This document shows positions 7,612 through 63,935 of a stretch of DNA of 64,000 nucleotides, in pieces. The notes under the pieces are model-generated. The model did no database searches. It had not been told where the DNA came from and saw only the letters and a program-made list of their open reading frames with translations. Where the stretch lies: positions 5,630,857 to 5,694,856 of the forward strand of contig OY725491.1 of assembly GCA_963281255.1 (NCBI GenBank). Reading direction: 5' to 3'. The position numbers and the translations under genes are program-made. Within the stretch, counting starts at the first letter, position 1. Every line of letters starts with the position of its first letter. The DNA is from Aphrocallistes beatrix (lineage: Eukaryota; Porifera; Hexactinellida; Sceptrulophora; Aphrocallistidae).

Positions 7612-7693
7612 ATATCTAAATCTCCTTTTACAGAATATATGCTACTCGTCGTAGTATTTAAGAATTTCTAGTAGAGTGGTTGTTTTGAAATAA

Positions 7694-30149: not shown

Positions 30150-30330
30150 GAGATGACATCCTTAGTGCTTTCAGCTCACTAAGGTTCTGCAATAGTGTAG
30201 GCTCGAATTACGTTGCCGAAGCATGACTACGTACTTTATTTAGTTGGATGTATTTATTATATACGTCATTTATAAAACTCATTTTAGGCCAAGTTCAGAA
30301 GTAAATACTTACTGAACCTTGCACAATAGC

Positions 30331-30638
30331 AGATTCTTACTGTATCTGGCACAAACTCAGATTCTTACTGAATCTGGCACAAACTCAGATTCTTACTGTA
30401 TCTGGCACAAACTCAGATTCTTACTGAATCCGGCACAAACTCAGATTCTTACTGAATCTGGCACAAACTCAGATTCTTACTGTATCTGGCACAAACTCAG
30501 ATTCTTACTGTATCCGGCACAAACTCAGATTCTTACTGAATCTGGCACAAACTCAGATTCTTACTGTATCTGGCACAAACTCAGATTCTTACTGTATCTG
30601 GCACAAACTCAGATTCTTACTGTATCTGGCACAAATGC
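30331..30638 (+). repeat. 28-bp minisatellite, 11 copies
   Basis: Unit AGATTCTTACTGTATCTGGC plus ACAAACTC, with only TGTATC/TGAATC and CTGG/CCGG variants. Because 28 is not a multiple of 3, the frame rotates between units, and the open frame over it is not evidence of a gene. Confidence 0.9.
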
Positions 30639-33005: not shown

Positions 33006-34353
33006 ATGACTCCATCTGTTCCAAGAACAGCTTTATTTTTAATTCTTCTACAAATGACACTTACAATGGTGTACCAGCAAAATCATTGCCGAACAAGCAC
33101 TAGAGGTAAACATTTCATTATTGCTTTTCCAGAAATCTATGAAGAAAGGGACTGGCCGGTAGATCGACATGTATTGATTGTCTCCTTTCACAACGAGATT
33201 ACAGAAGTTACGATAAACAGCCCATACAAATTATCAGACAACACTTATTTCACGAAAACTGTAATTATTCAACCTGAGAGTTTTGTACGGGTAAACATAT
33301 CAAGTGAGTTTGAATTAATCGGAATAGAGAAAAGTTTCAAGACAGTTGAAATTACAGCAGATTTTGAGGTATCTGTCGATTCAATTCATTTGGAACAACA
33401 AACTTCAGATGGTTTCTTGGCAATCCCTACAGCAAATTTAGGAACTCAATATGTTGTTACAAGTTTTGATGATGGAATCATTGATGCTAATTTTGATGAT
33501 GAAACATTATTTACAGTTATTGGATCTCAAAAAGATACAACTGTTTCAGTTCAATTGACTTCTGAAGTGTCATACGATAACAATCAATATAATCCCGGTG
33601 ATACATTAATTCTAAAGCTTTCAAAGTATGAAGTAATCCAAATTGTATCAACAAATGATTTAACTGGAAGCATAATTAGCAGTGATAAACCAATAGGAGT
33701 TATAAGCGGTCATTCATGCGCCAAGAGTAACGGCGCCAACTGTGATAATCTATTAGAACAGAACATACCCGTCAGCGATTGGGGTACAAAACATTTCTAC
33801 TCCACAGCTGGAAGACAGGGTGGAACTTCTATATACCGTATGATTGCCTTCTTCAATCATACTTCATTCAATGTCAACAGTGAAAATAGGATACTAAATT
33901 CTGGAAATTTCACTCAGTTCGAGTTATCTGGTAATGGACTCATTGTCACTTCAAAACCAGCTTCTATGATCCAGATTTTATCGATAATAGATGGTGCTAT
34001 AAGAGAACCATCAATTATCCATGTGCCTAGTGAAGAACAGTTTGTATCAATGCTAGGATTTGTTACACCTACTCGATCTAATGTATTTTCTAAAGAGTTT
34101 TCTAATTTTGTGAATGTAATAGTAAAATCTGATGAAAAATCTTCATTAAGATTGAATGGTGGTTCTATTAACGAAAATAAGGCCTCTGTAAGTAAAATAA
34201 TGGATTCAGATTATGATCTACTTGCGATTCAATTACCAAGCGAGGAAGCTGTCTATTACATCACACAAGAATTAACCAACTCTTCTCCCATATCGGCAAT
34301 CGTATATGGATATTCAGAAGGCACATCTTATGGATTTGTTGCTGGACTCGCAG
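33006..34353 (+). CDS. Receptor 1 exon 1: signal peptide and IgGFc-binding N-terminal domain
   Basis: A single 1348-bp exon encodes a hydrophobic leader (TALFLILLQMTLTMV) and the whole IgGFc_binding-type domain known from FCGBP-like mucins and many invertebrate surface proteins. Landmarks are SDKPIGVISGHSCA, NLLEQNIPVSDWGTKHFYST and VYGYSEGTSYGF. The exon ends GGACTCGCAG|GTTACA on a phase-1 donor, compatible with the FN3 exons downstream. If that donor is not used, the frame runs 9 more codons to a stop at 34380-34382, giving a 458-residue secreted product. Confidence 0.8.
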
Positions 34354-37300
34354 GTTACAAAATTTATTTTTATTTTGATTAGTAATTTGTACTATTTTAA
34401 GGTGTTTTACTGAATAGTTTTGCATCGTATTAGTAAGGTAGAATCATACTACTCTGAAAGTACTTACAAAACATATATATGCACTTACACAAGATTCATT
34501 TTCTTTTGCATTCACTTTAAAAGAAGGTTTCCTACAAGTAGGTATTATTAGTATACGTATTTCAAATATGAAAATGTAGAAATCAATCAAGAATTTAAAA
34601 TTTTAAGATTTATTAAAGTATATTAAAGAAAGAGACCGTTCATCAAGCAGTCGCCATCCAGACATTCCAAAAATGCACCAGGATAAATTTGTTTATTTTA
34701 TGAAGATATTGTAAACAAGCATTATCAATATAGGATCGAAAATTTGATATTTGGAATCTATACCTTTACAAACAACAAATCAATAGTTGAAAGCTAATTT
34801 CTAGCACAATTTTGAGATTTATTCACTTCATGTATTCATTGTAAACAAAAACAGACCAAATAGTTATCATATCCCAGATTAAACGTTGTAAACTAGCCAA
34901 TTTTTGGAATTTGTTTACTTTATGTAACCATTGCAGACAAAAATAAAATTATCATATAGTCTCGAAAATATGATAATCGGATTCCATACCCCTAAAAACT
35001 CCTGGTCAACCGTTGGAAGTTAGTCTCCGGCATATTTATCAAAATTAGTAAAAGGTTGAATATATGTATTTAAAGGTTATAAATATACACATAACCTTTT
35101 TGATGTACATTTTTAATATCCCTACGGCTTGTGAATTCTTCAATCATTCGAACAAACAGACAAAAAAATCTTAGTGTTTCAATAAAAAGATATACAATAG
35201 TATATACGTATACAAATTGTGTTTAGTAATGCTACAATAATTGATCTCGTCTACTTATACTCGTATAATTATTTCTATTCGTAACATATCATATTTTATA
35301 GTATCATTTCCGCAACCAAGTCAACCTACTCTTGTTGATGGGCGAAATCCAGACAGTGTAAAGATAGAATGGGAAGAATACATGTATGCTGTATCAAACT
35401 ATTCACTTTGTGTTACAAAATTGAACGAAGTTGGTTGTGAGAAGAATTTCATATCATCTAACACAACATTCTTGATAGAAGGATTACAAGCAGCAACAAA
35501 TTATTCTGTAACGATTGTAGCAGTAACTGAAACATGTCAAAGTCTGGCAAGTAACAGACTTAACTTTACAACAGGTTTGACTTTGTAATTTTATTCTTAA
35601 TTTCAGAATATTCATCAGGATATACTAATAATGCTAAAAGTGCACATTTTAATTAAATAGATTGACAGATACATAAATATTAATTTTTGTAATAATTGAA
35701 ATAATATCTTATATACAGTATGCATAGGTATTTTGAAGCATGAATTTCAAGTCAATTTTTAAAAAAAAATTATGCTTAATTATAACATAGTCAATCGTGA
35801 AAATTCTTTATATTCTTATTCTCAGAGTATAAAAAGAAAGCATTTAAAAAATTGTCTCTTGTCTTATCACTAGTTTCTATGACACTGATAAAGTAGATAC
35901 AATATGTAAAGAGATATAAACCATCATATTTGCAAAATTAATTATCAAATGAAACAAGTATAAATTATTATAGGGATAATATTGTTCAAGTGGCTTTAAT
36001 ACGAATTACTTTCTATAAAATTAATGTATATTTTTAGCATCACTTCCACAAGCCAATCCACCCAGTCTTGTTAATACTAGTGCAGACAGCATAGAGATAA
36101 AATGGGAGAAATATATGTTTCCTGTTTCAAACTACTCAATCTGTGTTAGGAAATCAAACGAAATTGACTGTGCAAATAATTTCACACCCTCCAACATAAA
36201 GTTCTTGATACCAAATTTAGAACCAGAAACAGAGTATTTTGTAACAGTTTCTGCTTTTACTAAACATGGTCCAAGTCCGAAAAGTAACAGAACTGGATTT
36301 ACAACAGGTTTGTGAAAATAGTAGTATTATAACATTTTAGTGTGCTATACTAATATTGGATCATGGATCCTATATAATCATTTCATGGGTGCACAATATT
36401 GCAAGAATTATATTTCACATGGGTATAAATATGTTTTCTAGAACCACTTCGAAAGCAAATCGTGCTATTTTCGTTAACAGAAGTGCAAACAGTATAGAGA
36501 TAAGATGGCATGAGTATATGTTCCCTGTTTTACAGAACAAAAACAAAAACAGAATCTTAAATATTTTTATCATTCACCTAATAAAAACAATATATTTACT
36601 TTGACTCTATTGAATATCTATTTTTCTAGAACCACTTCCAACACCAATTCAACCTACTCTTGTTGATAGAGATGCAGTCAGTATCAAGATAGAATGGCAG
36701 GAGTACTTGTTTCCTGTTTTAAACTACTCACTCTGTGTCATTAAATCTAGCGAAATTGGTTGTAATATTAACTTCACAACTTCTAATACGAGTTTCCTGA
36801 TACCAAATTTAGAACCAGAAACAGAGTATTTTGTAACAATTTCTGCTTTTACTAAACATGGTCCAAGTCCGAAAAGTAACACAACTGGATTTACAACAGG
36901 TTTGTGAAGATAGTATCGTGAACTAAAAAAATACCTTAGATATTTTGGTTTGTCGAATATACTTTCATAATTGGTAACTTTGCAGGTTATAAACATTTAT
37001 TCATTTTGATTATTCTGTGCCTAAAGTTACTAAATAATTTTACATAGTAATAGAAAGAAATTATACTAATTTGTAAGTACATACTGAAAAGATGTATGCA
37101 CTCAGATGAGATATCGGCGTACTTGGTTCCCTATACGTATGTCTTATTAATATACAATCGCAATAGACTGCTCGTGATAGAGCCACATCGGTCAGAAAAT
37201 GATTTGATCTGGTTAAGTGGAGAACCCCATTAACCTAAAAAAGTTGGCATGGATTAGCTGCTTTTCACATGATTATGTTCTTATATTAAATGACTCGATT

Positions 37301-40300
37301 AACCGGTTGGCTCCATTAACCGGTGGTTCTATTAAGTAGAGTGTGCTGTATTTCAAATATAAAAATGCATGCATCTATCAAGAATGAAAACTAACTAATA
37401 GAACATTTTGAAGCATTGTTAATGTTTTGATTTTTATCAGTTGCCAAAATTTGGTCTCCAAATTGTATCACATTTCATGACAACTTAACTTTACAGAGAT
37501 ATAAAATATTTTTTGAAATGATTGAAACAATATCCTGATACAGTATGTATGTAGTATATGTATTTTCAAAGCACAAATTTCCAACCAATGAATTATAGCA
37601 GAAATGATTCATGCATAATTATAGCATTAGTCAATAACGAAAGAACGCGATCAAGATTAAAATTTCAAATCATGATCTATTTTTTATTATTTTGAGGTAG
37701 AGTACATTTTTTGTCATATTTAATATAGAAACTAGGTCTTAAGCAGATTAGAACTGATAGAATGGCGACACTTGTGACTCACTGGCCACTTTCCAGCATA
37801 TCTACAACTTTAAACATTATTTAATAATTAAACCTTCTTTGGGTGTGATTAATTTGAATATATTATTTCTTTAGTTCCACTACCTATAAAACCGATAATC
37901 ACCTCCCCAGTCGAAGATATTGTACGAAAAGTTACTGATATAACTACGCGTGCAAATTTCAGTCTTACTCAAGAATGCACTGCTACAGGATTTCCTCAAC
38001 CTTCTGTAACATGGAGTGGAGATCTGAGTATGAAATTCGTCAACGGAAATGTATTGTCAATAAAACCTGGAGATTTGGCAGAAATAATAAATTCACTTAA
38101 GTTCAAATGTACTGCGACGAATTCTGAAGATTCTGATACAAAGAGCGTCAAAATATTGTTTACAATTGATCTTTCTGACATCATTGATCAATTAATTAAT
38201 GTAACTGATGAACAAGTAACTACTATTACTAATAAAATTACTAATAAGACAAATGGTATTAATACATCGGCGGAGAATACTACTGAAATACAGCGAGAAT
38301 TGGAGATGTATGCAGAGTATTTTAAAAGTTTAGCCGATAAATATCTAACTACAAATAAATCATTGAATAATAATACAGTGATGAGTTTATTGGACACAGC
38401 GCAAGCAATCATCAGCAAAGATAGCAATATTGAAGAAGAAGAAATTAAGGTACAGTACCATAAAATAGGTACAATGGACTCTTTAATCGGGGCATATCAG
38501 TCTTTTTATTTTGGCTTAATTGAGTGGAGTTTCCAAACAAGTGTATTTTAATTTTTTATGTAAGCATTGGAATGGTTCTGTTCTTAGCGGATTTTCAAAA
38601 TTACACGGTCTCCATTTAGATAAACCAAGACTTATGATAAAATATAAGTTTCATTCTAATGACAAATTGGCTTGGTTTAATGGGACATTAGCATCCATGG
38701 ATACATGTCATTGATGTCAAGGATACTGTGGAGATTAAATTTTAAAAATTAGATTGTTTTTATTTAGACATTTCTATGTGAATACTATAAATACCTTTAT
38801 CTTATGTATCATAGTCTGAAGCTCAGAGAGGACATAATAACATCGCTCCAGCTTCTTCAGTCTTTCGCACAGTTCTAAACACTGTAGAAAACATAGCTTC
38901 GAATGCTGCGAAAAACTTGGAGGATTCGGAGAGTAATACCAGTTCAATTTATAGAGCTAGAACAATCACTGTGATTGCGGAGAATATAAATCTACCTAAA
39001 ATCGATCCTGAAACACCAGATCTTATAATTCCTAAAGGAGAAAAAGGAATTGTGGATGGCATCAAAGAGAGAATTCAAATCTCCTCTAGGAACTTTGGAA
39101 TACTTTCATCAAATAATCGCAATCTTAGAGTGAGTTAATACACTTAGATGGCAAAATTATAAATACAAATTTGCATAAATTTGATAAACATAGTACAACT
39201 ATGTAGTACGTATATTTCATACAAAAACAATCTGTATATGCAACTTTGCACTGTAAGTATGTTAGTTTAATATGATTATATTATGTAAATATAGATTGCA
39301 ACTACAATAGTCAACACTATCGAAATAAGGAGTGAAACTACGGGAATAAACTTATCAAAGTTATTTACTAATATTATTTCATTGGTGATTCCATCAAAGA
39401 GAGATCAGAAGATAAGACTTGCAAAACCGGTAAGTTTCCTTACACAGCTGTAATGTAGACTAATTAAGTGTCGTAATTGGGCATAAATATTAAAATACTA
39501 TTAATCGATCAGCAATTGTTCCAAACAATTTAATTCTACTCAAGAGTTTACAATTTTTCTCCATGACAAGTTATATATGATTTCCTTCTAAAGTTATTTT
39601 AGTACCCTATGTCCTCCTTAAATGTATATATAGTAAGCTGAACTATATTTAAAATACATCTCGTTTAAATATTTTTAGGTGAAGCTAATTTTTCCAGTAT
39701 CCAAAAGCAACCCAAATGGTCTCAAGCAAGTATGTTCCTTTCTCGGTGATGTATATTGGTCGGATGAAGGTTTGAAAACAGATGAGATGGATAATGTTAC
39801 ATATTGCTACACAGACCATCTCACAAGTTTTGCAGTCTTCGTTACGCCTAGAGATTTAGAGCCTGATAATAGAATTGCATCTATCGTCAGTTATGCAGTT
39901 GTATCGATCTCATTCATCTCCTTAATTGTATCCCTAGTCCTGTTCATACTTAGCGGTAGAGGCAAACATTGTGTATTTCAACTACTGTTTGTCACTAACA
40001 TTGGCTTTCGGTTTATTCTTATTTGGAATTGAGACTGGGAAATTTAACGAAATTTTGTGCAAAATCATAGCTTTTCTCCTCCATTATCTCTGGCTCTCTG
40101 TGTTTGTATGGACCCTCTGCAATGGAGTCTTGATTATCTACAAACTGACATTAGGTAAGTAAACCTTACATGCTAACATGATAGTTCAAAGTGTATTAAA
40201 GCGATTCGTATGCTTGGATTGTGTTGCTAATGAATACTTTGTATCCACATGAGGCGCTCTGAGGAATATCATGTTGATGAGTACCAGAATGGAATGATTG

Positions 40301-42397: not shown

Positions 42398-43212
42398 GGC
42401 CCCTAACTTTATGTTTGCTCATGAATTTCTTTTAGTATAACTGCTCAAACTAATTTGTTCTAGAAAACAGAATTTTTTTTCCCTAGTATCTTCTCAGTAT
42501 ATGGTGTGTATGATTATTGTTTGCTATTGAATTTCTTTTAAGATAACTGGTCAAACTAATTTGGTATATAAAACTGAGAATATTTTTTTTCCTAGTATCT
42601 TCTCAGTATATGGTGTGTATGATTATTGTTTGCTATTAAACCTTGTATATGTGAAATAACTTTAATTAGAGGTTTTTGTTTTCCTGTAAAAGTAGAACCA
42701 GTTTGAAATGCTTTAAAGCATTTAAAATTAAACAGTGACGTCATTCCTCCATGATGAGTGATATCTCAAATGATATATGAGTATATGTTAGTTAGGGTAT
42801 GGTCATTATTCCTAATTTCTGAATTCAATAAAGCTGATGATACTTGTACAAATCACGATTTATACCTAAAAAATTATAGTTTTGCCTGTAAAAATTTCTT
42901 GATGACGTTTTGATGATTAAGAGTATTTAAAGAGAGATATTGTTGCAATTCGATCTTTCCGCTTACTTCATAATAAATATATTTCAAAATGCAACTAAAC
43001 TGATAAGAATAGGAAATGCCCAACGAAAAATGATCAAATATTTATAAATCTTCCTCATAGACAAAACGTCTATAGAAAGAATTTTGGATTAAAGCTTCTA
43101 AATTCCCATAGAATTTCAAGTTAAAAATTTAGGAAATTAGGCAATAAATGTAAATAGTATAATTATTTCATTTTAAAATATGCTTACTCAAAAATATTAT
43201 CCATAAACTAAC
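42398..43212. other. 3' flank of receptor 1
   Basis: Begins with two near-identical direct repeats of about 115 bp (ATTTCTTTTAGTATAACTG-like start, TCTTCTCAGTATATGGTGTG core) at 42420-42640, likely in the 3' UTR. AATAAA occurs near 42829. The rest is AT-rich with no gene. Confidence 0.5.
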
Positions 43213-43711
43213 TTATGACGATCTTGTACATGATGAATATTCCGATACACAGAGTCCAGGTGAACACTGATAGCCAGGAGTAGCGTAGTAAGAATGCAAT
43301 GATCTTGCATAACACTATGTTGTATGTACCAACTTGAATGCCAAATACGAATAATCCAGTTGCTAACAGCATAGACAGGCAATAGTTGAAGTAGATAATG
43401 TTAGCTTCTACCTTGAAGAATGCTTTACCAGCAATGAGGAAGATAATGAGAGAAATCCATAAGAAGATGAACGAGATATCAAAAAAAGGCATAGCTAATA
43501 GCTGAGAGTGTTATAAATTCCTTGGAATCTCTGACATTATCAAAGACGTAACAAAGCCTGCAAATATTGTGAAATGTGACGATTCACAGTTTGTGAGAAT
43601 AGCTGTTGATTGATCTGTAGATAAACCGTCGCTCACCCAACTAGTATCATTCAAGAACACACAAGTACTTTCTGAAGGTTGGTTTGAATACATATCAAAT
43701 GATAATATCAC
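43213..43711 (-). pseudogene. Relic GPS-TM1-3 exon of a third receptor, antisense
   Basis: One exon homologous to 61926-62421 but on the other strand: acceptor CTTTAG|GTG at 43711, a GPS-like stretch (TCVFLNDTSW, NCESSHFTIFAGFVT), a TM1 frame (FDISFIFLWISLIIFLIAGK) and TM2-TM3 (VYFNY-like IIYFNYCLSMLLATGLFVFG, LRYSWLSVFTWTLCIG), with a phase-1 donor at 43212. Two frameshifts separate GPS, TM1 and TM2. The GPS cleavage HLT is changed to HFT. No TM4-7 or ectodomain exon is found around it, so it is a solitary decayed exon. Confidence 0.8.
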
Positions 43712-44744: not shown

Positions 44745-44814
44745 ATGTCTAAAGAATTACTCATCATAACTTTGCTGATCTTAGGATGGTTGACTAGTGA
44801 GGTTCAAACACAGA
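44745..44814 (+). CDS. Receptor 2 exon 1: signal peptide
   Basis: Seventy bases encode a short leader (MSKELLIITLLILGWLTS...) that ends on ACACAGA|GTAAGT, phase 1. Too short for ordinary ORF finding; it fits because the next exon begins in the same phase with an SRCR domain, and because its flank is the part duplicated at 26990-28420. Confidence 0.75.
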
Positions 44815-50800: not shown

Positions 50801-53800
50801 ATAAAATGGCAAGAGTACATCTTTCCTGTTTTGCATTATTTACTTTGTGTTACGAAATCAAACGAAATTAACTGTGAGTTTAATTTCACAACTTCTAATA
50901 TAAATTTCTTGATACAAGATCTGGAACCAGAAACAGAATATTTTGTAAAAATTACTGCAATAACTGAGTATGGTTCAAGTCCTACGAGTAACAGAACTCG
51001 ATTTACAACAGGTTTGTGAGAATAGTAGTATTATAACATTTTATTGTGCTATACCAATATTGGATCTTGGATCCTATTTAACAATTTCATGGGTGCATAA
51101 TATTGTAAAATCATATTTCACATGGTTATAAATATGTTTTCTAGAACTATTTTCGCAAGCAAATCCTGCTATTTTCGTTAATCGAAGTGCAAACAGTATA
51201 TAGATAAGATGGCATGAGTATATGTTTCTGTTTTACAACACAACACAAAAACAGAATCTTAAATATTGTTTTCATTGACCAAATAAAAACAGCATATTTA
51301 CTTTGACTCTATTGAATATCTATTTTTCTAGAATCACTTCCAGCACCAATTCAACCTATCCTTGTTGATAGTGATACAATCAGTATTAGGATAGAATGGC
51401 AGGAGTACTTGTTTCCTGTCTTATACTATTCACTCTGTGTCACTAAATCTAACGAAATTGGCTATAGTAATACCTTCACAACTTCTAATACGAGTTTCCT
51501 GATGCAAGATTTAGAACCAAAAACAGAGTATTTTGTAACAATTTCTGCTTTTACTAAACATGGTCCAAGTCCGAAAAGTAACATAACTGGATTTACAACA
51601 GGTTTGTAAAAATAGTATTCGTGAACTATAAAAAATACCTTAGATATTTTAGTTTATCGAATATACTTATATGGTTGATAACCATTGGAATATCCATATT
51701 TTTTACTTAAACAATTGATTGGTATATTTAACTTAAAGATGGTCGCGGGGAAAATTGGTCGCGGTAAAATGGTCGCGGAAATTTCGTCGCTAGGAAAAAT
51801 AGTCGCGGGGAAAATTTATCGCTAGGAAATAAAATTCACTTTCAATATGAATCGGTTTTAAACTGAAAATGCTCAGTTTCACACTGTTCTCCTAACGTTT
51901 CCGACATAAAATGCCTACTTTCGCGCTCATTTTAATTTGCGAACATCTCTTTCCCCGCGACGAATTTTCCTCGCGACCATCCTCGCGACCATTTTTCCTC
52001 TTCCAATGAATATCTATTTCTTTAGAACCACTTCCATCACCATTTCAACCTACTCTTGTTGATAGAGATGCAGTCAGTATCAAGATAGAATGGCAAGAGT
52101 ACTTGTTTCCTATTTTACACTATTCACTCTGTGTCACTAAATCTAACGAAATTGGCTGTAGTAATAACTTCACAACTTCTAATACGAGTTTCTTGATACA
52201 AAATTTAGAACCTGAAACAGAATATTTTGTAACAATTTCTGCTTTTACTAAATATGGTCCAAGTCCGAAAAGTAATAGAACTGGATTTACAACAGGTTTG
52301 TGAAGATAGTAGTTATATAACATTTCAGTCTGTCCCCTATGCTAATAAGCGTATTAGATCCTATATAGTCCTATGGGTGCACAAATTCACTGACATAAAA
52401 TCTACATAAACTTCACGTGGTTATAAATATATTTTCTAGAACCACTTCCACCAGCGAATCCTCCTATTTTCGTTAACAGAAGTGCAGACAGTATAGAGAT
52501 AAGATGGCATGAGTATATGTTTCCTGTTTTATACTATTCACTTTGTGTCGTAAAATCGAATGGAAATGGTTGCGATAACAATTTCGAAACCTTGAATACG
52601 AATTTCTTAATACAAGACTTAGAACCAGAAACAGAATATTCTGTAACAATTGTGGCAGTGACTGGATATGGTTCAAGTCCTACAAGTGAAGAGAAGAATT
52701 TCACGACAGGTTTGTGAGTATTTATAATACTGATAGCAATAAGATTATCTAAAACTGTATTAACAGACTTAAAGTATGTTTGTAATATGTATGTATGTAC
52801 GTAGCAAAGAATAAGCTTGGAAGTCTGTTTGAGTAAATATCCATTCTTGAAATTCTTATGAGTACAAAGTATAGAAAGAGAGCCCCTTCAAAAAATTTCA
52901 TTTGCCTTCTCACTAGTTCTTTTAACATAGATGAAGTAGGTGCAATATGTAAAGATATAAAACCATCTTTGCAAAATTAATTATCAAATGAAATGTGTCA
53001 ATTATAGTGATTCAGATGTTTAAGTGGCTTTAACATAATACATATTAGTTTTTAAATAAAAATTAAATTAATATACGACGTATTACAACAGGTTTGTGAA
53101 ATTAATACTTGCAAACTCAAATATTTCTAGTTTGTTGATTTTATTCGAATTATTTTCTATAAAATTATTATATTTTAGAATCACTTCCACAAGCCAATCC
53201 ACCCAGTCTTGTTAATGCTAGTGCAGACAGCATAGAGATAAGATGGAAGGAATATATGTTTCCTGTTTCAAACTACTCACTCTGTGTTACGAAATCAAAC
53301 GAAGTTGGTTGTAACATTAACTTCACAACTTCTAATACGAGTTTCTTGATACAAAATTTAGAACCAGAAACAGAATATTTTGTAACAATTTCTGCTTTTA
53401 CTAAACATGGCCCAAGTCCGAAAAGTAACAGAACAGGATTTACAACAGGTTTGTGAAAGAATATCTCTATTGACCATTTCTCTTCAATTTGTTATCTATT
53501 CGAGAACTTTTAGAAATAAGATGGTCTCGCGAGCCATCTTTCGACAAATATATATATTAATAACAATATTTATTAAACTAAACAAATGAATATAACTAAG
53601 TCGATCATTAGTACTTATCTAGATTCCTAAATTCTAATTGAGCGAATATTAATTCTTGATGTTCTTATTCTAATAGCAAGTACAGAAAGAATACACTTTA
53701 AAAATGTTAAACCGTCATCTCATTAGTTTATATAACACTGATAAGTAGGTGCAATATGTGAAGAGAAATACATTATCATTGCAAAATTAATTATCAAAAG

Positions 53801-56800
53801 AAATAAGTATCAATTAGAGCGATTTATTTGTTCAAATGGCTTTAATATAGTTACTTTTTATAAAATTATTATATTTTAGAACCACTTCCACAAGCCAATC
53901 AACCCAGTCTTGTTAATACTAGTGCAGACAGCATAGAGATAAGATGGAAGGAATATATGTTTCCTGTTTCAAACTACTCACTCTGTGTTTGGAAATCAAA
54001 CGAAATTGACTGTGAAAATAATTTCACAATTTCCGATATCAATTTCTTAATACGAAATCTGGAACCAGAAACAGAATATTTTATAACAATTTCTGCAATT
54101 ACTGAATATGGTCCAAGTCCGAAAAGTAATAGAACTGGATTTACAACAGGTTTGTGAAGATAGTAGCATTACAACATTTCAGTCTGTCCCCTATGCTAAT
54201 ACGCGTATTAGATCCTATATAGTCCCATGGGTGCACAATTTCACTACATAAAATTTATGCTTCATATATAGTTATAAATATGTTTTCTAGAATCACTTCC
54301 ACCAGCGAATCCTCCTATTTGCGTTAACAAAAGTGCAAACAGTATAGAGATAAGATGGCATGAGTATATGTTTCCTGTATTATACTATTCACTTTGCGTT
54401 GTAAAATCGAATGTAAATGGTTGCGATAACAATTTCACAACCTTGAATACGAACTTCTTGATTCAAGATCTAAAACCAGAAACAAACTATTCTATAACAA
54501 TTGAAGCAGTAACTAGATATGGTTCTAGCCCAGCAAGTGAAAAACGTGGATTTATAACAGGTTTGTAAAATAATATTGCAAACAAAAACGGAATATTAAA
54601 TATTTGTATTATTCACCCAATAAAAAGAAAATATATATATTTCTTTCACTCTATTGAATATCTATTTCTCTAGAACCACTACCATCACCAATTCAACCTT
54701 CTCTTGTTAATAGAAATGTATGCAGTATCGAAATAGAATGGCAGGAGTACTTGTTTCCTGTCTTATACTATTCACTCTGTGTCACTAAATTGAATGAAAT
54801 TGGCTGTAGTAATAACTTCACAACTTCTAATACGAGTTTTCTGATCCAAAATTTAGAACCTGAAATAGAATATTTTGTAACAATTGTTGCAGCTACTGAA
54901 TTTGGTTTAAGTCCTCCAAGTCTGGAACAGAATTTCATGACAGGTTTGTAAGTATATTTGTAATCGTGATAGCAATAAGATTATCCAAATCTGTATTAAC
55001 AGATCTAAAGTGATATTTATGTAAAAAACAACAAAAATTAACTGAGCGTATATTTATTCATAATATTCTTATTCCAATAGCAAGTAAAGAAAGAATGGTA
55101 TTTTTAAAATTTCAATTGTCTTCTCACTAGTTCCTTTGACACAGTTAAAGTAGGTTTAATAAGTAAAGAGATATAAACCATCATTGCAAAGTTAATCACC
55201 AAATGAAACAAGTGTCAATTATAGTGATTTGATTGCTCATGTGATTAATATACAATATTATTTTTTAAATAAAACTTATTATATTTTAGCATCACTTCCA
55301 CAAGCCAATCCACCCAGTCTTGTTAACACTAGTGCAGACAGCATAGAGATAAGATGGGAGGAATATATGTTTCCTGTTTCAAACTACTCACTCTGTGTTA
55401 GGAAATCAAACGAAGTTGACTGTGAAAATAACTTCACAACCTCCAATTTAAATTTCTTGATACAAAATCTAGAACCAAAAACAGAATATTTTGTAACAAT
55501 TACTGCGATTACTGAATATGGTTCAAGCCCTCCAAGTGAAAGACGTGGATTTACAACAGGTTCGTGAAATTAATATTTTTGAAGTAAAAAATCAAATATT
55601 TCCAGTTTGTCGAATTTACTCTGCATAACTTTTGAAACATCCCTAATTTTTCACTCAAACTCTGGATTGTTATATTATCACCCCCAATATAGAGCAGTAA
55701 TCATGTGTATGCAGTATTATTCCCCATCAAATAATATACAAGTACTTACCTTCCTCCTACTGAATATCTATTTCTCTAGAACCACTTCCATCACCATTTC
55801 AATCTACTCTTGTTGATAGAGATTCAGTCAGTATCAAGATAGAATGGCAAGAGTACTTGTTTCCTGTCTTATACTATTCACTCTGTGTCACTAAATCTAG
55901 CGAAATTGGCTGTAATAATAACTTCACAACCACTAATACGAGTTTCTTGATACAAAATTTAGAACCAGAAACAGAATATTTTATAACAATTTCTGCTTTT
56001 ACTAAACATGGTCCAAGTCCGAAAAGTAACAGAACTGGATTTACAACAGGTTTGTGAAGATAGTAGTATTATAGCATTCTAAGTTTTATTTTTGCTTCCA
56101 ATACTAATATTGTGTCATAGATCCTATATAGCCGCATGAGTGCACAATTTCACTAAAATTTATGCTTCACACGGTTATAAATATGTTTTCTAGAACCACT
56201 TCCACCAGCGAATCCTGCTATTTTCGTTAACGGAAGTGCAAACAGTATAGAGATAAGATGGCATGAGTATATGTTTCCTGTTTTACACTATTCACTTTGT
56301 GTTGTAAAATCGAATAGAAATGGTTGCGATAACAATTTCAAAACCTTGAATACGAACTTCTTGATACAAGACTTAGAACCAGAAACAAACTATTCTGTAA
56401 CAATTGAAGCAGTGACTGGATATGGTACAAGTCCTAAAAGTGAAAGACGTGGATTTACAACAGGTTTGTGAAATTAATTCTCGTGAACTCAAAAAATTAT
56501 TAAATATTTTCAGTTTGTAGATTGTACTTTGCATTACTTGTTAAATACCCCTGTTTTTCACTCAAACTCTGGATTGGTTTATAACTTTGAGAGTATATCA
56601 ACTTCAATATAGCAGACAATTATGTGTATGTAGTATTATTCCTAATCAACTAATATACTAACCTTCATGCTAATGAATACGCGTATCTATTTCTCTAGAA
56701 CCACTTCCATCACCAATTCAACCTACTCTTGTTGATAGAGATGCAGTCAGTATCGAAATAGAATGGCAAGAGTACTTGTTTCCTGTTTTACACTATTCAC

Positions 56801-59800
56801 TCTGTGTCACTAAATCAAACGAAATTGGTTGTAATAATAACTTCACAACTTCTAATACGAGTTTTCTAATCCAAAATTTAGAACCTGAAACAGAATATTT
56901 TGTAACAGTTTCTGCTTTTACTGAACATGGTCCAAGTCCGAAAAGTAACAGAACTGGATTTACAACAGGTTTGTGAAGATAGTAGTATTATAGCATTCTA
57001 AGTTTTATTTTTGCTTCCAATACTAATATTGTGTCATAGATCCCATATGGCCGCATGAGTGCACAATTTCACTAAAATTTATACTTTACATGGTTATAAA
57101 TATGTTTTCTAGAATCACTTCCACCAGCGAATCCTGCTATTTGCGCTAACAGAAGTGCAGACAGTATAAAGATAAGATGGAACAAGTATATGTTTCCTGT
57201 TTTACACTATTCACTTTGTGTTGTAAAATCGAATGGAAATGGTTGCGATTACAATTTCACAACCTTAAATACGAGCTTCTTAATACAAGACTTAGAACCA
57301 GAGACAGAATATTTTATAACTGTTTCTGCTTTTACTAAATACGGTCCAAGTCCGAAAAGTAACAGAACTGGATTTACAACAGGTTTGTGAAAATAGTAAT
57401 ATTATAACATCTCAGTTTATCCCCAATACTAATGCTCGTATTAGACTATAGATCCTATTTAGTCCCATATGTACACAATTTCACTAAAATTTATACTTCA
57501 CATGGGTATAAATATATTTTCTAGAACCACTTCCGCCATAAATCTACCTTCACTTTATTGAATATCTATTTCTCTAGGACCACTACCAACACCAATTAAA
57601 CCTATCTCTGTTGATAGAAATGCAAGCAGTATCGAAATAGAATGGCAAGAATATTTGTTCCCTGTTTTATACTATTTACTCTGTGTCACAAAATCAAACA
57701 AAATTGACTGTAATAATAATTTCACTGCCTCTAATACGAGTTTTCTAGTCCACAATTTAGAACCAGAAACAGAATATTTTGTAACAGTTTATGCTTTCAC
57801 TAAACATGGTCTAAGTCCGAATAGTAGCAACGCTGCATTTACAACAGGTTTGTGAAGCTATGTATAGTAGTATTATAATATCATTTTAGTGTTATTTCTA
57901 AACTATTATTGGATCACATATCCTATATAATCGCAAAAGTGGAAAGAATTAGGTGGAATGATTTCAAATGCAATTTATTCTCCTTTTATTGTTATAAATA
58001 TATTCTTTAGCACCACTTCCACCTGCAAGTCCTCCTATTTTTGTTAACATAAGTGCAGTCAGTATAAAGATAAGATGGCAAGAGTACATCTTTCCTGTTT
58101 TACATTATTTACTCTATGTTACGAAATCGAATGAAATTGGCTGTAATAATAGTTTCACAACCTCCAATACGAGTTTCTTGATTTCAAACTTAGAACCAGA
58201 AACAAAGTATTTTGTGACGAGTGTAGCAGTTACTGAATATGGACCAAGCCCGACAAGTGAAAAACAGAATTTTACGACAGGTTTGTGGGTATTTGGAATC
58301 GTAATAGCGATTAAATTTCAATTGACTTCTCACTTGTTTGTATGACACTGATAAAGTAGGAGTAATATGTAGATTGATATAACCCGTCAAATTTGCAGAA
58401 TTATAAGTAAATATCAAATGAAACAAGTGTCTATTCTAGCGATTTATTGTTCAAGTGGCTTTAACACAATTTTATTTTTTTAATAAAAATTATTATCTTT
58501 TAGCATCACTTCCACAAGCCAATCCACCCAGTCTTGTTAATTCTAGTGCAGACAGCATAGAGATAAAATGGGAGGAATATTTGTTTCCTGTTTCAAACTA
58601 CTCACTCTGTGTTAGGAAATTGAATGAAATTGGTTGTGAAAAGAGTTTCACAACATCTAAGACAACATTCTTGATAGAAGGATTACAAGCAGCGACAAAT
58701 TATTCTGTGACGATTGTAGCAGTAACTAAGACAAGTAAAAGTATGATGAGTGACAGACTTAACTTTACAACAGGTTTGATTATCTTAAATTTAATTTTAG
58801 ATGTCAGTATAATTGAAATAGATTAACAGAAGCATAAATATTATTTTTTCATAATAATTGAAATGATATACAATATGCATGTATATATAGTATATAAGAG
58901 TATTTTAAAACACGAATTTCCAGTCAACTACAGCAGAAATGCTTTATGCATAATTATAGCATTAGTTAATCGTGAAAAAGAGCATGATCAAGATTTCAAT
59001 TTCAAATTTTGATCCCTATCCCGATCATTTCAATCGGTTCATTACGTATAATGCATATTTTTGTGTTATTTAATATAGAAAATAGATCTTTAGCTGATTA
59101 GAACTGATATAATGATGTATTCCTGTGACTCAATGGCCGTCCTTAAGGTATATCCACAACCTTTCTTAAAAATTAGCGAAAAATTTTGGACAAATAGTAT
59201 CGCGGTCGTGTTTGAATGATCAATGCTCGCACGATCCTAATGTTTTAGGTATAGTCAAATTGGTCATTCACAAACCTGGTTATCACTGTTTTCCATAGAA
59301 CTGCTACAAACTGCTGTTATTAATGTTTACGCCTAGCATACTGATTTCAGTCATGCGTACATAGCAATAGTTTACTTGTTTTAATAATTAAAAATTATAG
59401 CTCCTTTATTTATGTGATTAATTTGAATATATTCCTTAGATCCACTTCCGCAACCAAGTCTACCTATCTTTGTTAAAATAAATATAGCCGACAGTATCAA
59501 GATAGAATGGGAAGCATACTTGTTTCCTGTCATACACTATTCACTATGTGTGATTAAATCGAACGAAATTGGTTGTAATTCTACTATCACAACATCTGAA
59601 ACGAGCTACATTCTACAAAATTTAGAATCAGAAACAATTTATTTTATTACTATCACTGTATTTACTGATATTGGTGAAAGTCCAGCAAGTGAAAGAATCG
59701 CATTTGCAACAGGTTTGTATTTTTGTATAAGAAATGAATCTAATCTAATCTGAAATGAATCTAATCTTTTTTAGAAAATATACCTCCAACAATCACCTCT

Positions 59801-62800
59801 CCACTCGAAGATATTGAACGAAAGGTTACTGACATATCTACGTATACAAATTTTAATCTCACTCAAGAATGCACTGCTATAGGATGTCCTCAACCTACTG
59901 TGACATGGAGTGGAGATCTGAGTATGAAATTCGTCATAGGAAATGTATTGTCAATAAAATCTGGAGATTTAGTGGAAATAAAAGATATAAATCCACTAAG
60001 GTTCATTTGTAAGGCGACGAATTCTGAAGGTTTTGATACAAAGATCGTCAAAATATTGGTTAGAATTGATATTTCTGCCATCATTGATAAATTAATTAAT
60101 GTAACTGATGAGCAAGCAACCAATCTTACTAATATTATCACTATCAACACAAACGGTATTGATACATCGGCGGATAATACTACTGTAACACGGCAGGAAT
60201 TAGAGAAAAATGCAAAAGATTTAGAAAATTTAGTAGGCAAATATCTGAATACAAGTAAATCATTGAATAATAATACAGTGATAAACTTATTGGACACAGC
60301 ACGAGCAATCATCAACAAAAACAGTGAATTCGAAGAGGAAGAAATTAAGGTAAAGTACTATAAAATACAATGGACTCCTTTTAATTGGGGCATATCGGTC
60401 TGTTTATTTTGGCCTTAATGGTGGGGTTTCCAAACAAGTGTATTTTAATGATAATAATACTGTTGACCGGTTTCTTTCAAATATTCTCTGAGTTATCTAG
60501 GATTTTATCACGATCTATAGAGAAGCAATGAGATGTGACAAAATAAAATTTGAAATAACCACATCAACAGTATTATTTATCATATATGAAGTGATAGCTT
60601 GCGGATTGAATGATATTTCTTAGTGTCACCGATCTACACCTTTTGAGTTATAACGTATACATTCAATCTTTTGATTTCATAGTAACTGAAGAATATATAG
60701 ACATTCCAGTTCAAATTTTCAAATTTTTTGGATTAAGGCCTTCCTATTGATATTCTATACTTGTACTTGTATCAAAAATTCAAGCATTATAAATGCAGAT
60801 AACAATGTTTAAAATTATGTAGAGCTAGAACAGCATCATTTTTCGCTCTAAAAAGAAGTTATTTCGTCATCACATGACATATACACTTTTGAACATTTGA
60901 ATAACATTCCCAGATACGATGTTTGTATATGCTAATACTACATTTCAAAGGTCTATCGTATACGGTTTTTGATTTATCGGTCTAATTAACTTTGAACTGA
61001 ACTCCTATAAATAATTTAAATACCTTAATTTTATTTATCATAGTCTGAAGTTCAGAGAGGACAAAATAACATAGCTCCAGCTTCTCCAGTCTTACTCACA
61101 ACTCTAAACACTGTAGAAAACATAGCTTCAAATGCTGCACAACGCATAGAGGATTCGGAGAATGGTACCAGTTTAATTTATAGAGCAAGAACAATCACAG
61201 TGATTGCGCAAAATATAAATCTAAGTGAAATCGATCCTAAAATACCAAATCTTATAATCCCTAAAGAAGAAAATGGAATTGAGGATGGCATAAAAGAGAG
61301 AATTCAAATCCAACCTGAGAACTTTGGAATACATTCATCAAATAATCCTAATCTTAGAGTGAGTTAATTAACGTAAAATAGTATAAGTACAAATTTGTGT
61401 AAATTTGATAAACATAGTACATCTGCGTAGTACGAATATTCCTCAAAAAACAATATGAAAATGCAACTTTGCACTATATATATATGCTTATTTAATAATG
61501 ATTATATGATGTACGAGTATGTATAGATAGCAATTACAAGAGTTGATACTATGGAAACAAGGAGTGAAACTAAGAAAGTGAACTCATCAAGGTTATTTAG
61601 TAATATTATTTCACTGGTGATTCCATCAAAGACAGATCAGAAGATAGAACTTGTACAACCGGTAAGTTTTTCTACACAGCTCTAATCCAGATTACCTAAA
61701 TGTCGAATTTGGGCTTAAAATATCAAAAGAGTACTAATCGATCAGCAATTGTTTTAAACAATTTATAATTTATTCAAAAGGGTTTTTAATTGTTTTCCGT
61801 GACAAGTCATGTGATTCCATTCTAAAGTTATTTTAGTGCCCTATGTCCTCCTTAAATGTACTTAAACTGAACTTATGAAAATTGTTCCAAATAAATTTGA
61901 TAAATTTATTTTAAATCTTTTTTAGGTGAAATTAATTTTTCCCATATCTCAAGGTAATTCCAATAGTACTTTCAAGCAAGTATGTTCCTTTCTCGGTGAT
62001 GTATATTGGTCGGATGAAGGTTTAAGAACAGATGAGATGGATAATGTTACATTTTGCTACACAGACCATCTCACAAGTTTTGCAGTCTTTGTTACGCCTA
62101 GAGATTTAGGGCCTGATAATAGAATTGCATCTATCGTCAGTTATGCAGTTGTATCGATCTCATTCATCTCCTTAATCGTATCCCTAGTCCTGTTCATACT
62201 TAGCGGTAAGAAGTTCTTCAAGGTAGAGGCAAACATTGTGTATTTCAACTACGGTCTGTCACTAACATTGGCCTTCGGGTTATTCCTATTTGGAATTGAG
62301 ACTGGGAAATTTAACGAAATTGTGTGCAAAATCATAGCTTTTCTCCTCCATTACCTCTGGCTCTCTGTGTTTGTATGGACTCTCTGCAATGGAATCTTGA
62401 TTATCTATAAACTAACATTAGGTAAGTAACATCGAATTTCTGATTAACGTTTATGTTAAATTGATTGTTATATTATACAATGCATTTATAGAATATAGTA
62501 GTTCAATACTTACTGAAACACCTATCTAATCATCCAAAAGTTCAGTTCTCAATTAAAAATTATTTCTTTAGGCATTTTGAGACAACAAAAGATATATCCA
62601 TACTTGATAGTATTCGGATGGACATTTCCTATCGTTATTCCAATTATTACAGTCGCGATTAAACATGACAAATACGTAGACACAACTCAACACTGCTTTT
62701 TGACGTATGAAGATGGAATTATCTGGGCTTTTATCACTCCAATTATAACTATCATCCTTGTTAATATGGTTATACTCGTTATATCAGTCATTCGGATTTC

Positions 62801-63935
62801 AACTACCAAATTTGGTTCTGAAAAACTGAAAGAGAAACAAGTGATCAAGGCTGCACTTGTCTCAACTTTAATCTTGACTCCATTACTGGGTATTCCTTGG
62901 GTCATCCTCCTACTCAACATCTTCATAGTAGACCCAGTAGTACAGTGGGGTTTCATCATCACCAATGGACTAATGGGAATCTTTTTCTTCTTTGCAATTA
63001 CTATGCGAAACACTGAAGTTAAAAAATTGTTAAAAAAGAAGAAAGGAGAATATTCTCAGATGTCTAGATGTCTAGTACCGAAAATAAACCATCTGGCATT
63101 TTGAGTAACAAGTTCAAAAGATCTGTGTCACGAGAAACAACAGATACATTATCTCCGTCTCATACAGAAGCTAGTAAGAAAGGAAACTATTTTGCACTTG
63201 GTAAGTAGCTGTAATTAATAATTAATCTCGCTATATATAAGATAATATAGTGGATAGAGATCTTGTTTCTTTGTTTATACTTTCATAATTTGTTTAGTTT
63301 ATCCTTACATTATAATTAAAACAAGCAAAGTGCAGGAGTTATCGAATAGTTTCTGAAATCATTTTTGTCGTGAAAGTATCCTCAAAATTTTCGATTGAAA
63401 ATCAATTGAGAACTATGCAGTAGAGCAGAATATGTTTATTCATTTTGAATAATAAAAATTATTTTGAAAATGGAGATAAATTTTTAATTGTAGATGTTAA
63501 CAAAATATACTTAATATCTGACATAAATTTAATAACAGTGAAAGTTTAAAAAATTATATTCTTATAGAGCCAATGGGTACTTCTGAGGTTCAGGATGATG
63601 GTAGGGAAGTCAAATCCCCGACGGGATCACTTTCTTCAAGATATAACACTCCTCCTAGACCAAAGAACCTCCCCAAACCAAAGCCAAAGAGTTCTAGGGA
63701 TGAGTCGGGACAAGATATATGTTACAACATACCAGCAACTGTAAAACCTGATCAAACTAACATCTACGATATGCTGGCACCTAAAGATGCTGAAGGAGAG
63801 AAAGACTCGCCTGAATCTGCCGAGATTCCTGAAGAGAGTTCCTTTAGTGGTTTTGAATATCCGAGTAATGCTACTAAGCAAAATACTGGTAAAAGCGTAG
63901 AGGTAGACAAGAAAGTCTACCAGAGTTTGAACTAA
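44745..63935 (+). CDS. Receptor 2: 7 SRCR / 19 FN3 / Ig / GAIN adhesion-GPCR-like, tail frameshifted
   Basis: Very large adhesion-GPCR-like receptor, 33 exons. Signal-peptide exon 44745-44814; SRCR exons 45318-45599, 45778-46077, 46551-46862, 47300-47659, 47887-48204, 48929-49267, 49327-49635; FN3 exons 49696-50007, 50274-50564, sixteen of exactly 270 bp from 50742 to 58773, and 59440-59712; Ig/GAIN exons 59775-60349, 61044-61358, 61527-61661; GPS plus TM1-3 61926-62421; TM4-7 62572-63200; tail 63568-63935. Joined, they read 3179 residues to a stop at 63102-63104. That stop is caused by a perfect 8-bp tandem duplication (ATGTCTAG, 63060-63075); without it the frame would continue through the tail as in receptor 1. 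It presumably sits at the cell surface, with SRCR domains binding protein or microbial ligands (inference). Splice joins are inferred from GT-AG signals and constant phase 1. Confidence 0.85.
45318..49635 (+). CDS. Receptor 2 SRCR block (seven one-exon domains)
   Basis: Seven consecutive phase-1 exons of 282, 300, 312, 360, 318, 339 and 309 bp, each one scavenger-receptor cysteine-rich domain (residues about 24-763). Domains 1 and 2 are canonical (RGSWGFACG, DVVCKILGYG; NKWAHCCDDFW, DVACRKLGF, CIGNESSLLEC). Domains 3-7 keep the cysteine spacing but have lost much of the WGTVC core, so they are divergent. Introns are 60-1200 bp and several hold repeats (46920-47272, 48245-48681). Confidence 0.85.
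46920..47272. mobile_element. MITE-like element in a receptor 2 SRCR intron
   Basis: Inverted ends built from AATAAGTCCGACTGGAATAG at the left and repeated ACTTATTCCAGTCGG / GGACTTATTC at the right, around an internal duplicated TGAGATGTTAAAAA...CAGGGAG segment. It fills most of the intron. Confidence 0.55.
48245..48681 (-). mobile_element. Helitron-like element of the second family in a receptor 2 intron
   Basis: Reverse orientation: a decayed GC-rich end (CGCGCTTTGCACTTTGTATC), one internal unit (AGAATCTACATCTCTAAAAA, CCGTTGGAAGCTTGTA) and the 5' end, which on the minus strand reads A|TCTTATATATTAAAACG. Confidence 0.55.
50742..58773 (+). CDS. Receptor 2 FN3 cassette array (16 exons of exactly 270 bp)
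   Basis: Starts at 50742, 51332, 52026, 52440, 53179, 53880, 54291, 54674, 55290, 55780, 56194, 56699, 57113, 57578, 58011 and 58504. Each exon is 270 bp, phase 1-1, and encodes one FN3 domain: a SLPxxNPPxLVN-like start, IEIRWxEYMFPV, YSLCVxKSNEIGC, NLEPETEYFVTI and GFTTG at the end. The exons fall into a few sequence classes that alternate, and introns before the same class also resemble each other, so whole exon-intron units were duplicated. The pair of cysteines 8-10 residues apart (LCV...GC) is unusual for FN3 and may form a local disulfide. Confidence 0.85.
51145..51245 (+). pseudogene. Decayed type-B FN3 exon in receptor 2
   Basis: Begins like a functional type-B exon (CTAG|AACTATTTTCGCAAGCAAA) but has an in-frame stop (AGTATATAGATAAGATGG) and breaks off after TTTCTGTTTTACAAC. 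It sits in the same relative place, before a type-A exon, as the stub at 36440-36540. Confidence 0.75.
51736..52002. mobile_element. MITE-like element with GGTCGCGG ends
   Basis: Left end has direct GGTCGCGG repeats (ATGGTCGCGGGGAAAATTGG); right end has the complement (CCTCGCGACCATCCTCGCGA). No ORF. It occupies a single FN3 intron. Confidence 0.6.
53083..53100 (+). pseudogene. Residual 3' end of an FN3 exon
   Basis: ATTACAACAGGTTTGTGAAA matches the last bases of an FN3 exon and its donor, but the rest of the exon is gone. A matching 5' stub (CTAGAACCACTTCCGCCA) lies at 57522-57545. Confidence 0.6.
59775..61661 (+). CDS. Receptor 2 Ig domain and GAIN region
   Basis: Exon 59775-60349 encodes an Ig domain (LTQECTAIGCPQP, TWSGD, FICKATNSEG) and a helical stretch (IIDKLINVTDEQATN ... 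INLLDTARAII). Exons 61044-61358 and 61527-61661, both phase 0, continue the GAIN region (LNTVENIASNAAQ, FSNIISLVIPS). The same three exons with identical lengths (575, 315, 135) occur in receptor 1 at 37875-38449, 38815-39129 and 39295-39429. Confidence 0.8.
61926..63200 (+). CDS. Receptor 2 GPS and seven-transmembrane module
   Basis: Exon 61926-62421: GPS-like motif QVCSFLGDVYW ... FCYTDHLTSFAVF with the HL|T cleavage triplet kept, then TM1 (SYAVVSISFISLIVSLVLFI), TM2 (YFNYGLSLTLAFGLFLFG) and TM3 (LHYLWLSVFVWTLCNGILII). Exon 62572-63200: TM4-TM7 with STLILTPLLGIPWVILLL and GLMGIFFFFAITMRNTEVK, typical of class B2 receptors. The GPS lacks the inner pair of cysteines of the canonical motif. 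The 7TM core is intact; the frame is lost directly after it at the 63060-63075 duplication. Confidence 0.85.
63060..63075 (+). repeat. 8-bp tandem duplication causing a frameshift in receptor 2
   Basis: ATGTCTAG occurs twice in a row. The reading frame stops 9 codons later. With one copy the frame would read on to TTTGCACTTG|GTAAGT and match the receptor 1 tail (SKKSKWSVSR against SNKFKRSVSR). Confidence 0.85.
63568..63935 (+). CDS. Receptor 2 tail exon (out of frame in this sequence)
   Basis: An open 368-bp exon, phase 1, homologous to 42042-42397. It encodes a proline-rich tail: SSRYNTPPRPKNLPKPK, YNIP, YDML, AEIPEESSF. Its sequence is well preserved against receptor 1, so the upstream frameshift is probably young, polymorphic, or bypassed by splicing. 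Confidence 0.65.

Follow-up and report, generated by a model that had tools for sequence, protein, structure and literature searches.

Adhesion G-protein-coupled receptors (GPCRs) with repeated SRCR domains have been described in the sponge Amphimedon queenslandica, where Aq712029 and Aq715659 place several SRCRs before a secretin-type seven-transmembrane (7TM) domain, and where the sponge legend also names fn3, Ig and GPS (PMC4302439). In the placozoan Trichoplax sp. H2, 28 of 36 receptors with C-type lectin-like domains are reported as adhesion/secretin GPCRs (PMC6321704), while sponge and sea urchin SRCR gene clusters are described as tandem arrays with varying domain number and duplicated exon structures (PMC10855680). 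We analysed a 64,000-nucleotide window of the hexactinellid sponge Aphrocallistes beatrix (C4:5630857-5694856, C4 being contig OY725491.1, in an assembly of 100,537,919 bases and 28 contigs), which carries two receptors of this kind, R1 and R2; the labels R1-R18 denote the receptors in the DNA retrieved from the assembly. We consider it quite likely that R1 and R2 are members of a tandem adhesion-GPCR array in which N-terminal recognition domains (heads) and GAIN/GPS/7TM parts (bases) have been exchanged between genes.

In the accessible text of the A. queenslandica report, no IgGFc-binding head, no order of seven SRCRs followed by 19 or 20 FN3 domains and no evidence of exchange is mentioned. 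The Trichoplax receptors, as summarised in their source, resemble R14, R16 and R17 in bearing lectin heads on a 7TM domain, whereas the array described here unites lectin, SRCR and IgGFc heads on exchangeable bases. In the sponge SRCR cluster genes each SRCR is spread over three exons, according to the excerpt available (PMC10855680), in contrast to one exon each here, joined to a 7TM base. Brown-algal ROCO genes, described in the accessible part of their report as exon-shuffled candidates for immune receptors (PMC11378527), likewise combine variable recognition exons with a constant signalling part, but are unrelated proteins. ADGRD1 and ADGRL3 share with the present receptors the GPS, the motif HL/T, whose role in cleavage is outlined in PMC12716839 in the text available, a tethered-agonist sequence and the 7TM domain; they differ in their heads, and the sequence match covers neither the Ig exon nor the first half of GAIN. 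In the open-licence literature, as far as its texts were accessible, we found neither an IgGFc-headed adhesion GPCR nor head swapping in such an array, although a receptor figure of another sponge names IgGFc-binding and GAIN without, in its accessible part, specifying their carriers, and may show one (PMC8242945). The SRCR- and lectin-headed forms are already published, as far as these sources reach, and the IgGFc head, the SRCR7-FN3x19/20 form and direct evidence of exchange are apparently new. The earlier note on this window knew of no described receptor with the order SRCR x7-FN3 x19-Ig-GAIN-7TM; that exact form indeed appears new, but SRCR-repeat adhesion GPCRs were known (PMC4302439, from its accessible text) and the order recurs in R5 with 20 FN3.

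Exchange of heads and bases within the array

From sequence comparison, the exchange of heads and bases between array genes, by recombination or gene conversion, could be shown. A genome-wide search for 7tm_2 listed 134 matches, with 29 matches to transmembrane helices 4-7 (TM4-7) within C4:4.94-5.90 Mb, and the window belongs to a cluster that packs at least 29 of these 7TM genes into 0.95 Mb and in which SRCR, IgGFc, C-type lectin and FN3 heads occur; the paralogues that the earlier note had proposed to seek beyond its 64 kb therefore exist. IgGFc_binding gave 10 matches genome-wide, four of them inside the array. At least 11 of 30 TM4-7 matches on C4 were preceded on their own strand by an SRCR no more than 25 kb away, with no other 7TM between them (a lower bound, with 150 of 308 candidates scored; one of the 30, at 2147302, is outside the cluster).

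In array members with readable upstream exons, a head was joined to a GAIN/GPS/7TM base. R3 and R4 have the order IgGFc-FN3-Ig-GAIN-7TM (IgGFc_binding 164.9 and 176.1 bits, respectively, at a cut-off of 25.6), and R5, about 0.67 Mb from R2 on the opposite strand, has SRCR x7-FN3 x20-Ig-GAIN-7TM. R6, whose retrieved DNA opens with the last part of an FN3 exon and stops before the 3' part of its tail region, seems to be a shorter version of the SRCR-FN3-Ig-GAIN-7TM order, its four FN3 and upstream SRCR being known from hit lists alone. Together with a 7TM, R7, R8, R9 and R12 have 16, 6, 3 and 30 upstream SRCR matches in their assigned stretches, whose outer gene ends are not fixed, and an Ig match was found in R7, R8 and R12 and none in R9. 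R10 opens with a single 1159-amino-acid reading frame containing IgGFc (E 4.8e-51), AMOP, VWD, C8-3 and Sushi, followed by Ig-GAIN-7TM. R14, R16 and R17 combine a C-type lectin (Lectin_C) with FN3, Ig, GAIN and 7TM, the FN3 being over the Pfam cut-off in R14 and a weak hidden Markov model (HMM) match in R16 and R17, and R18 has FN3 repeats (incomplete), Ig, GAIN and 7TM. The heads of R11, R13 and R15 lie outside the readable part, and that of R18 is incomplete.

Two side observations concern these members. Four IgGFc-binding frames of 1143-1179 amino acids, similar in length to the R10 frame, stand together outside the array at C13:3159298-3195945 and could have supplied the IgGFc-AMOP-VWD-Sushi head. 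R17 seems to hold two tandem GAIN-GPS units (L045:9069-9569 and L046:943-1447 of the retrieved stretches; C4:5873069-5875447), the first GPS (HLTSFAVLVTP) continuing without a break into another helical GAIN stretch, and the 7TM coming after the second GPS.

R16 is, judged by its matches, an R14/R18-like ectodomain on an R17-like GPS-7TM. Across the lectin-to-GAIN exons and their introns, its matching blocks were 88-90% identical to R14 at the DNA level; it matched R18 at 89% from the FN3 exon onward and, over 1251 bp starting with the GPS exon, shared 93% identity with R17. A single breakpoint at C4:5862370-5862388 fitted 577 of 611 informative sites, which none of 2000 shuffles equalled, and it lies 13-31 bp upstream of the cleavage codon (the T of HL/T) at 5862401, as counted from the start of the GPS match. 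Synonymous divergence (dS) was 0.17 to R14 in the lectin and 0.06-0.14 to R17 in the 7TM, with the R14-R16 7TM comparison saturated. Because the upstream flank of R16 is related to that of R17 (76-80%), R16 may be an R17-like gene in which gene conversion replaced about 3 kb.

A head and base of different affinity were also found in R10, whose IgGFc head shared 72-76% identity with the heads of R1, R3 and R4, with the Ig exon at 30-31%, and whose TM4-7 was 50% identical to that of R2. The dS of this head to R1, R3 and R4 was 0.34-0.35, that of the Ig exon was 1.78, saturated and 2.67, respectively, and the 7TM was saturated in all pairs.

The seven SRCRs of R2 and R5 pair one to one at 74-97% amino acid identity (88, 90, 97, 91, 74, 86 and 75%), all other pairs reaching at most 35%. 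In the Ig+GAIN1 tree, R2 grouped with the IgGFc-headed R3/R4 (98/94), R2+R5 was rejected (p 0.007) and so was grouping by head (R1+R3+R4 versus the rest; p 0.030). GA2+GPS also rejected R2+R5 (p 0.013), its tree leaning without support (64/79) to grouping by head, and for the TM alone grouping by head was not rejected (p 0.11). Diagnostic sites in the R2 base were R3/R4-like at 34 positions, R5/R6-like at 14 and otherwise at 1. R2 would accordingly combine an R5-like SRCR block with an Ig/GAIN part grouping with R3/R4, an exchange less clean than those of R10 and R16. The picture of a locus mixing recognition domains on a fixed GAIN/7TM base, drawn in the earlier note, therefore holds for the mixing, as seen in R10, R16 and R2, but not for the fixed base, because the 7TM half of R16 was itself exchanged, the R1 base is frame-broken and the R2 base is truncated in its tail.

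The 7TM tree of the 18 receptors split at 100/100 into two clades, each with SRCR, IgGFc and lectin heads, and at least five head changes were required on its 14 labelled rows (R11, R13, R15 and R18 have no head label, and the SRCR label of R6 comes from hit lists). On a hand-entered, rounded copy of this tree, 795 of 5000 label shuffles gave five or fewer changes, so that heads are at most weakly tied to 7TM lineage. TM1-3 was identical over 74 amino acids in R3-R6 despite a dS of 0.16-0.37, and the ratio of nonsynonymous to synonymous divergence (dN/dS) was 0.48-0.78 for the Ig exon and 0.62-0.66 for IgGFc; these codon comparisons showed strong constraint on the 7TM of R2-R6.

The two receptors of the window

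R2, on the plus strand, begins with a signal-peptide exon (44745..44814, ending in phase 1 with donor GTAAGT; signal peptide recognised by eye, no Pfam match). Seven SRCR exons, all phase 1-1, follow within 45318..49635 (45318-45599, 45778-46077, 46551-46862, 47300-47659, 47887-48204, 48929-49267 and 49327-49635), and then nineteen FN3 exons, all phase 1-1, within 49696..59712, FN3_3 to FN3_18 being 270 nt each. The base consists of a 575-nt exon with Ig and a helical part resembling GAIN-A (59775-60349), GAIN exons of 315 nt (61044-61358) and 135 nt (61527-61661), a GPS plus TM1-3 exon with the motif HL/TSFAVFV (61926..62421; GPS E 3.1e-5, 7tm_2 E 2.2e-8) and a TM4-7 exon (62572..63104; 7tm_2 E 7.8e-22). 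In the tail, 8 bp are tandemly duplicated at about 63060, and the resulting stop at 63104 leaves the conserved cytoplasmic tail exon (63568..63935; 69-74% amino acid identity to the R1, R3 and R4 tails, no Pfam match) 3' of it; R3, R4 and R5 are open at this site, and the R6 sequence ends before it. The order is thus SRCR x7 (one divergent), FN3 x19, Ig, GAIN, GPS-TM1-3 and TM4-7, and the joined coding sequence has 32 exons and 3179 amino acids with its sole stop at the end. Each of the 26 SRCR and FN3 exons is a multiple of three between phase-1 sites, and the introns measure 59-724 nt. On this model R2 is one gene, because the introns of 60 nt between SRCR7 and FN3_1 and of 62 nt between FN3_19 and the Ig exon leave no space for a gene end and a promoter.

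Domain searches on the joined models, as the earlier note had advised, placed SRCR, fn3, GPS, 7tm_2 and IgGFc_binding over their Pfam cut-offs. For fn3 this held in all eight exons submitted (five of 19 in R2, 3/3 in R1), the other 14 FN3 exons of R2 having been identified with an HMM built from those same eight and hence not independently. SRCR was over the cut-off in 6/7 R2 exons. SRCR7 had no Pfam match, was unmatched by an HMM of SRCR1-6 and gave an unusable structure model (pLDDT 40.6), and is backed by six cysteines aligned with the other SRCRs and by its 75% identical counterpart in R5. The seven SRCR and 19 FN3 first ascribed to R2 thus stand, with the seventh SRCR divergent and failing those three checks. 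Both GPS and 7tm_2 of R2 exceeded their cut-offs. The R2 Ig exon scored 20.5 in Pfam, slightly below the cut-off of 23.7; it nevertheless folds as Ig, all matches listed in the fold search being Ig-domain structures. The rows listed span model residues 1-98, the Ig part, and among the 50 rows given of each fold-search list there was no GAIN structure. In the model, the helices after the Ig domain would fit GAIN subdomain A.

The 7TM of R2 is secretin-like, with 7tm_2 in two exons and with PDB profile matches led by ADGRD1 (4.4e-34 for the base); the match to ADGRL3 and ADGRG2 starts in the C-terminal part of GAIN, and that to ADGRL3 continues through the 7TM. The HL/T cleavage motif was found in 16/18 receptors, the exceptions being R10 (QFT) and R11 (HFT), whose GPS exons lie on the minus strand at C4:5790631-5790879 and C4:5802392-5802640; R10 and R11 may not self-cleave, because these residues are lost.

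R1, on the plus strand, has the order IgGFc-binding, FN3 x3, Ig, GAIN/GPS and 7TM. Its first exon (33006..34353; 1348 nt, ending in phase 1, donor CGCAG/GTTACA) encodes a signal peptide and the IgGFc-binding head (Pfam PF17517, E 1.7e-54), IgG binding itself being putative. Three FN3 exons over the Pfam cut-off span 35302..36899 (35302-35571, 36038-36307 and 36630-36899), and between them lies a fragment of a fourth at about 36442-36540 (35.7 bits to the FN3 HMM). The IgGFc-binding domain and three FN3 with which R1 was said to begin were thus confirmed, with this fragment in addition. The Ig exon (575 nt; 37875-38449; I-set E 1e-5) and GAIN exons of 315 nt (38815-39129) and 135 nt (39295-39429) lead to a frame-broken GPS plus TM1-3 exon (39679..40154), in which 17 bp are missing in TM1/intracellular loop 1 at about 39956; the TM4-7 exon (40947-41570; 7tm_2 E 5.8e-21) and the cytoplasmic tail exon (42042-42397) lie 3' of the break. 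GPS, 7tm_2 and Ig (I-set) were all over the Pfam cut-off. In alignment with R2-R6 the 17-bp gap was found in R1 alone, and the frame of the joined model stops after 1178 amino acids, shortly past TM1.

Private codon changes in TM1-7 numbered 15 nonsynonymous and 9 synonymous in R1, against 8 and 33 in R2-R6 jointly (Fisher p 0.001), whereas in Ig+GAIN1 R1 did not differ from R2-R6 (Fisher p 0.79). These tests indicated relaxed constraint in the R1 7TM and an ectodomain that evolved like those of the other receptors. Most likely, R1 no longer signals through its 7TM and is a pseudogene or at most yields a one-TM product; with its signalling part broken it is probably no working receptor of the adhesion-GPCR kind now.

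R1 and R2 share exons of 575, 315 and 135 nt (Ig, GAIN and GAIN), which agrees with the initial reading of the locus. "Near-identical", the term then used for their 7TM, overstated the likeness: amino acid identity was 91% in TM1-3, 81% in TM4-7 and 70% in the Ig exon, DNA identity was 81-84% in base blocks and 78% in the tail, and the R1 frame is broken. As a plain sister pair across the whole base, R1+R2 was rejected for Ig+GAIN1 (p 0.032), whereas neither GA2+GPS (p 0.139) nor TM (p 0.14) rejected this grouping. Between the two genes, on the minus strand at 42993..43687, HMM matches revealed an inverted relic of a different, clade B receptor, with GPS, TM1-3 and a scrap of TM4, its TM1-3 being 99% identical to R11 in amino acids.

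Several repeats accompany R1. Minisatellite arrays lie 5' of it at 29387-29558, 29603-30149 and 30330-30635 of the window, with periods of 12-14 with longer multiples, 11/23/34 and 28, and a 109-bp direct repeat in about two copies lies directly 3' of its tail exon (42412-42637). An interspersed repeat of about 560 bp in the R1 TM3-TM4 intron (40314-40875) has further copies at C4:5000205, 5838632, 5638549 (window 7693-8242), 5787892, 5841067, 5870215, 5867935 and 5753654, these longest copies being 77-91% identical. Comparison of coordinates placed it within introns of four receptors (R1, R5, R14 and R17) and at other points of the retrieved stretches. This repeat could promote misaligned recombination; the sole mapped breakpoint, that of R16, lies in a conserved exon outside it. 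Upstream in the window, a 2761-amino-acid open frame on the minus strand (11709-19991) with RasGAP and CRAL-TRIO matches, and PH_NF1 slightly below the cut-off, resembles a neurofibromin gene without introns. An Rfam scan of the whole window gave no matches.

Proposed function and alternative explanations

R2 would be a receptor of about 3,200 residues at the cell surface, where its SRCR/FN3 stalk might bind surface or microbial ligands. Pulling or displacing the head would expose, after cleavage at HL/T, the tethered agonist TSFAVFV and switch on the 7TM, and G-protein signalling and a recognition role are presumed; self-cleavage and tethered-agonist activation in R2 are predicted from the TSFAVFV sequence. 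The R2 head could be moved without breaking the frame because its exons are symmetric in phase 1, and the R16 exchange, lying just upstream of the cleavage codon, would place the N-terminal fragment of one receptor on the C-terminal fragment of another. We tentatively propose, as a possible rather than a probable reading, a germline combinatorial locus in which heads are exchanged at phase-1 introns, and N- for C-terminal fragments near the GPS, often enough for new pairings to build a variable immune or allorecognition repertoire in an early-branching animal.

Several points weigh against an array of exchanging receptors, or against parts of this reading. The models of R1-R18 were derived from DNA by splice-site inference, and a script check with a simple rule found phase-1 sites in open frame for 24/28 R5 exons, the exceptions being the Ig exon, two SRCR and one FN3; the same check gave 3/3 exons in both R3 and R4. 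With TM1-7 alone R2+R5 was not rejected (p 0.098), the GAIN2 exon of R2 is R5/R6-like (5/6 diagnostic sites), which makes its base patchy, and the R2-R5 dS of the SRCRs, 0.164 (0.124-0.208), has an interval that slightly overlaps that of the base, 0.249 (0.20-0.31). R7 and R12 have long branches and unsure placement in the 7TM tree. The profile evidence for GAIN covers its C-terminal part rather than the whole fold, both window receptors bear frame lesions, which argues against both working intact, and the immune or recognition role suggested for the array is read from sequence.

As to that role, the function of the array may lie not in antimicrobial defence but in cell adhesion, self/non-self tissue recognition or development, an explanation that we rank as a serious contender, a little short of an even prospect. 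Adhesion proteins often carry SRCR, FN3 and Ig modules, adhesion GPCRs act mostly in adhesion and morphogenesis, and the present data are equally compatible with such a role. However, fast-changing SRCR, C-type lectin and IgGFc heads in many copies resemble pattern-recognition repertoires, and one SRCR and one adhesion-GPCR gene of a sponge are reported, in the accessible text of PMC6208332, to have reacted to microbial patterns.

We think it unlikely that the array is decaying in the window, with R1, R2 and the inverted relic all reduced to non-functional remnants. The 17-bp loss and relaxed 7TM of R1, the tail stop of R2, the clade B relic and the partial FN3 exon fit such decay, but R2 retains 32 open exons and an intact 7TM, with one nonsynonymous and five synonymous private changes in the latter.

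Chimaeric genes such as R16 could in principle be artefacts of assembly or of haplotype merging, given an array of similar genes and a junction known from the assembly alone. This is very improbable: R14, R17 and R18 are also present, and a misjoin of them would not give the difference of about 7-12% between the R16 halves and these genes over matching blocks.

Still less credible is that heads never moved, each 7TM lineage having kept heads inherited from an ancestor with all of them, and that slow head evolution accounts for the similarity. The presence of SRCR, IgGFc and lectin heads in both 7TM clades would be expected from it; we rejected it on dN/dS, which for IgGFc far exceeds the value for the R2-R6 7TM, and on the contrast in dS, the R10 head being far less diverged than its Ig exon (at least 1.78 or saturated) and saturated 7TM, so that head and base are unequal. 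The sharp single breakpoint in R16 and the continuation of its R14 similarity through introns also speak against it.

That the SRCR/FN3 exons form a gene separate from the GAIN/7TM exons, with R2 a model artefact, as the earlier note's own refuting scenario had it, was rejected on intron length. The 694-nt intron after the R2 Ig exon could house a boundary within the base, but the 60- and 62-nt junction introns, the uniform phase 1 and the identical order in R5 make a separate gene extremely unlikely.

Implications for adhesion-GPCR modularity

The broken 7TM of R1 is a warning, as a bare domain list would score R1 as a functional receptor. The origin of the diverse ectodomains of adhesion GPCRs is usually argued from distant comparisons, whereas the exchanges described here are recent enough for dating and mapping, and one of them, adjacent to the expected self-cleavage site, was placed to within 19 bp. 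With such natural chimaeras, the modularity of adhesion GPCRs would become testable. Should the locus prove to be a recognition repertoire, a 7TM-coupled route would join the known ways of building one outside the jawed vertebrates.

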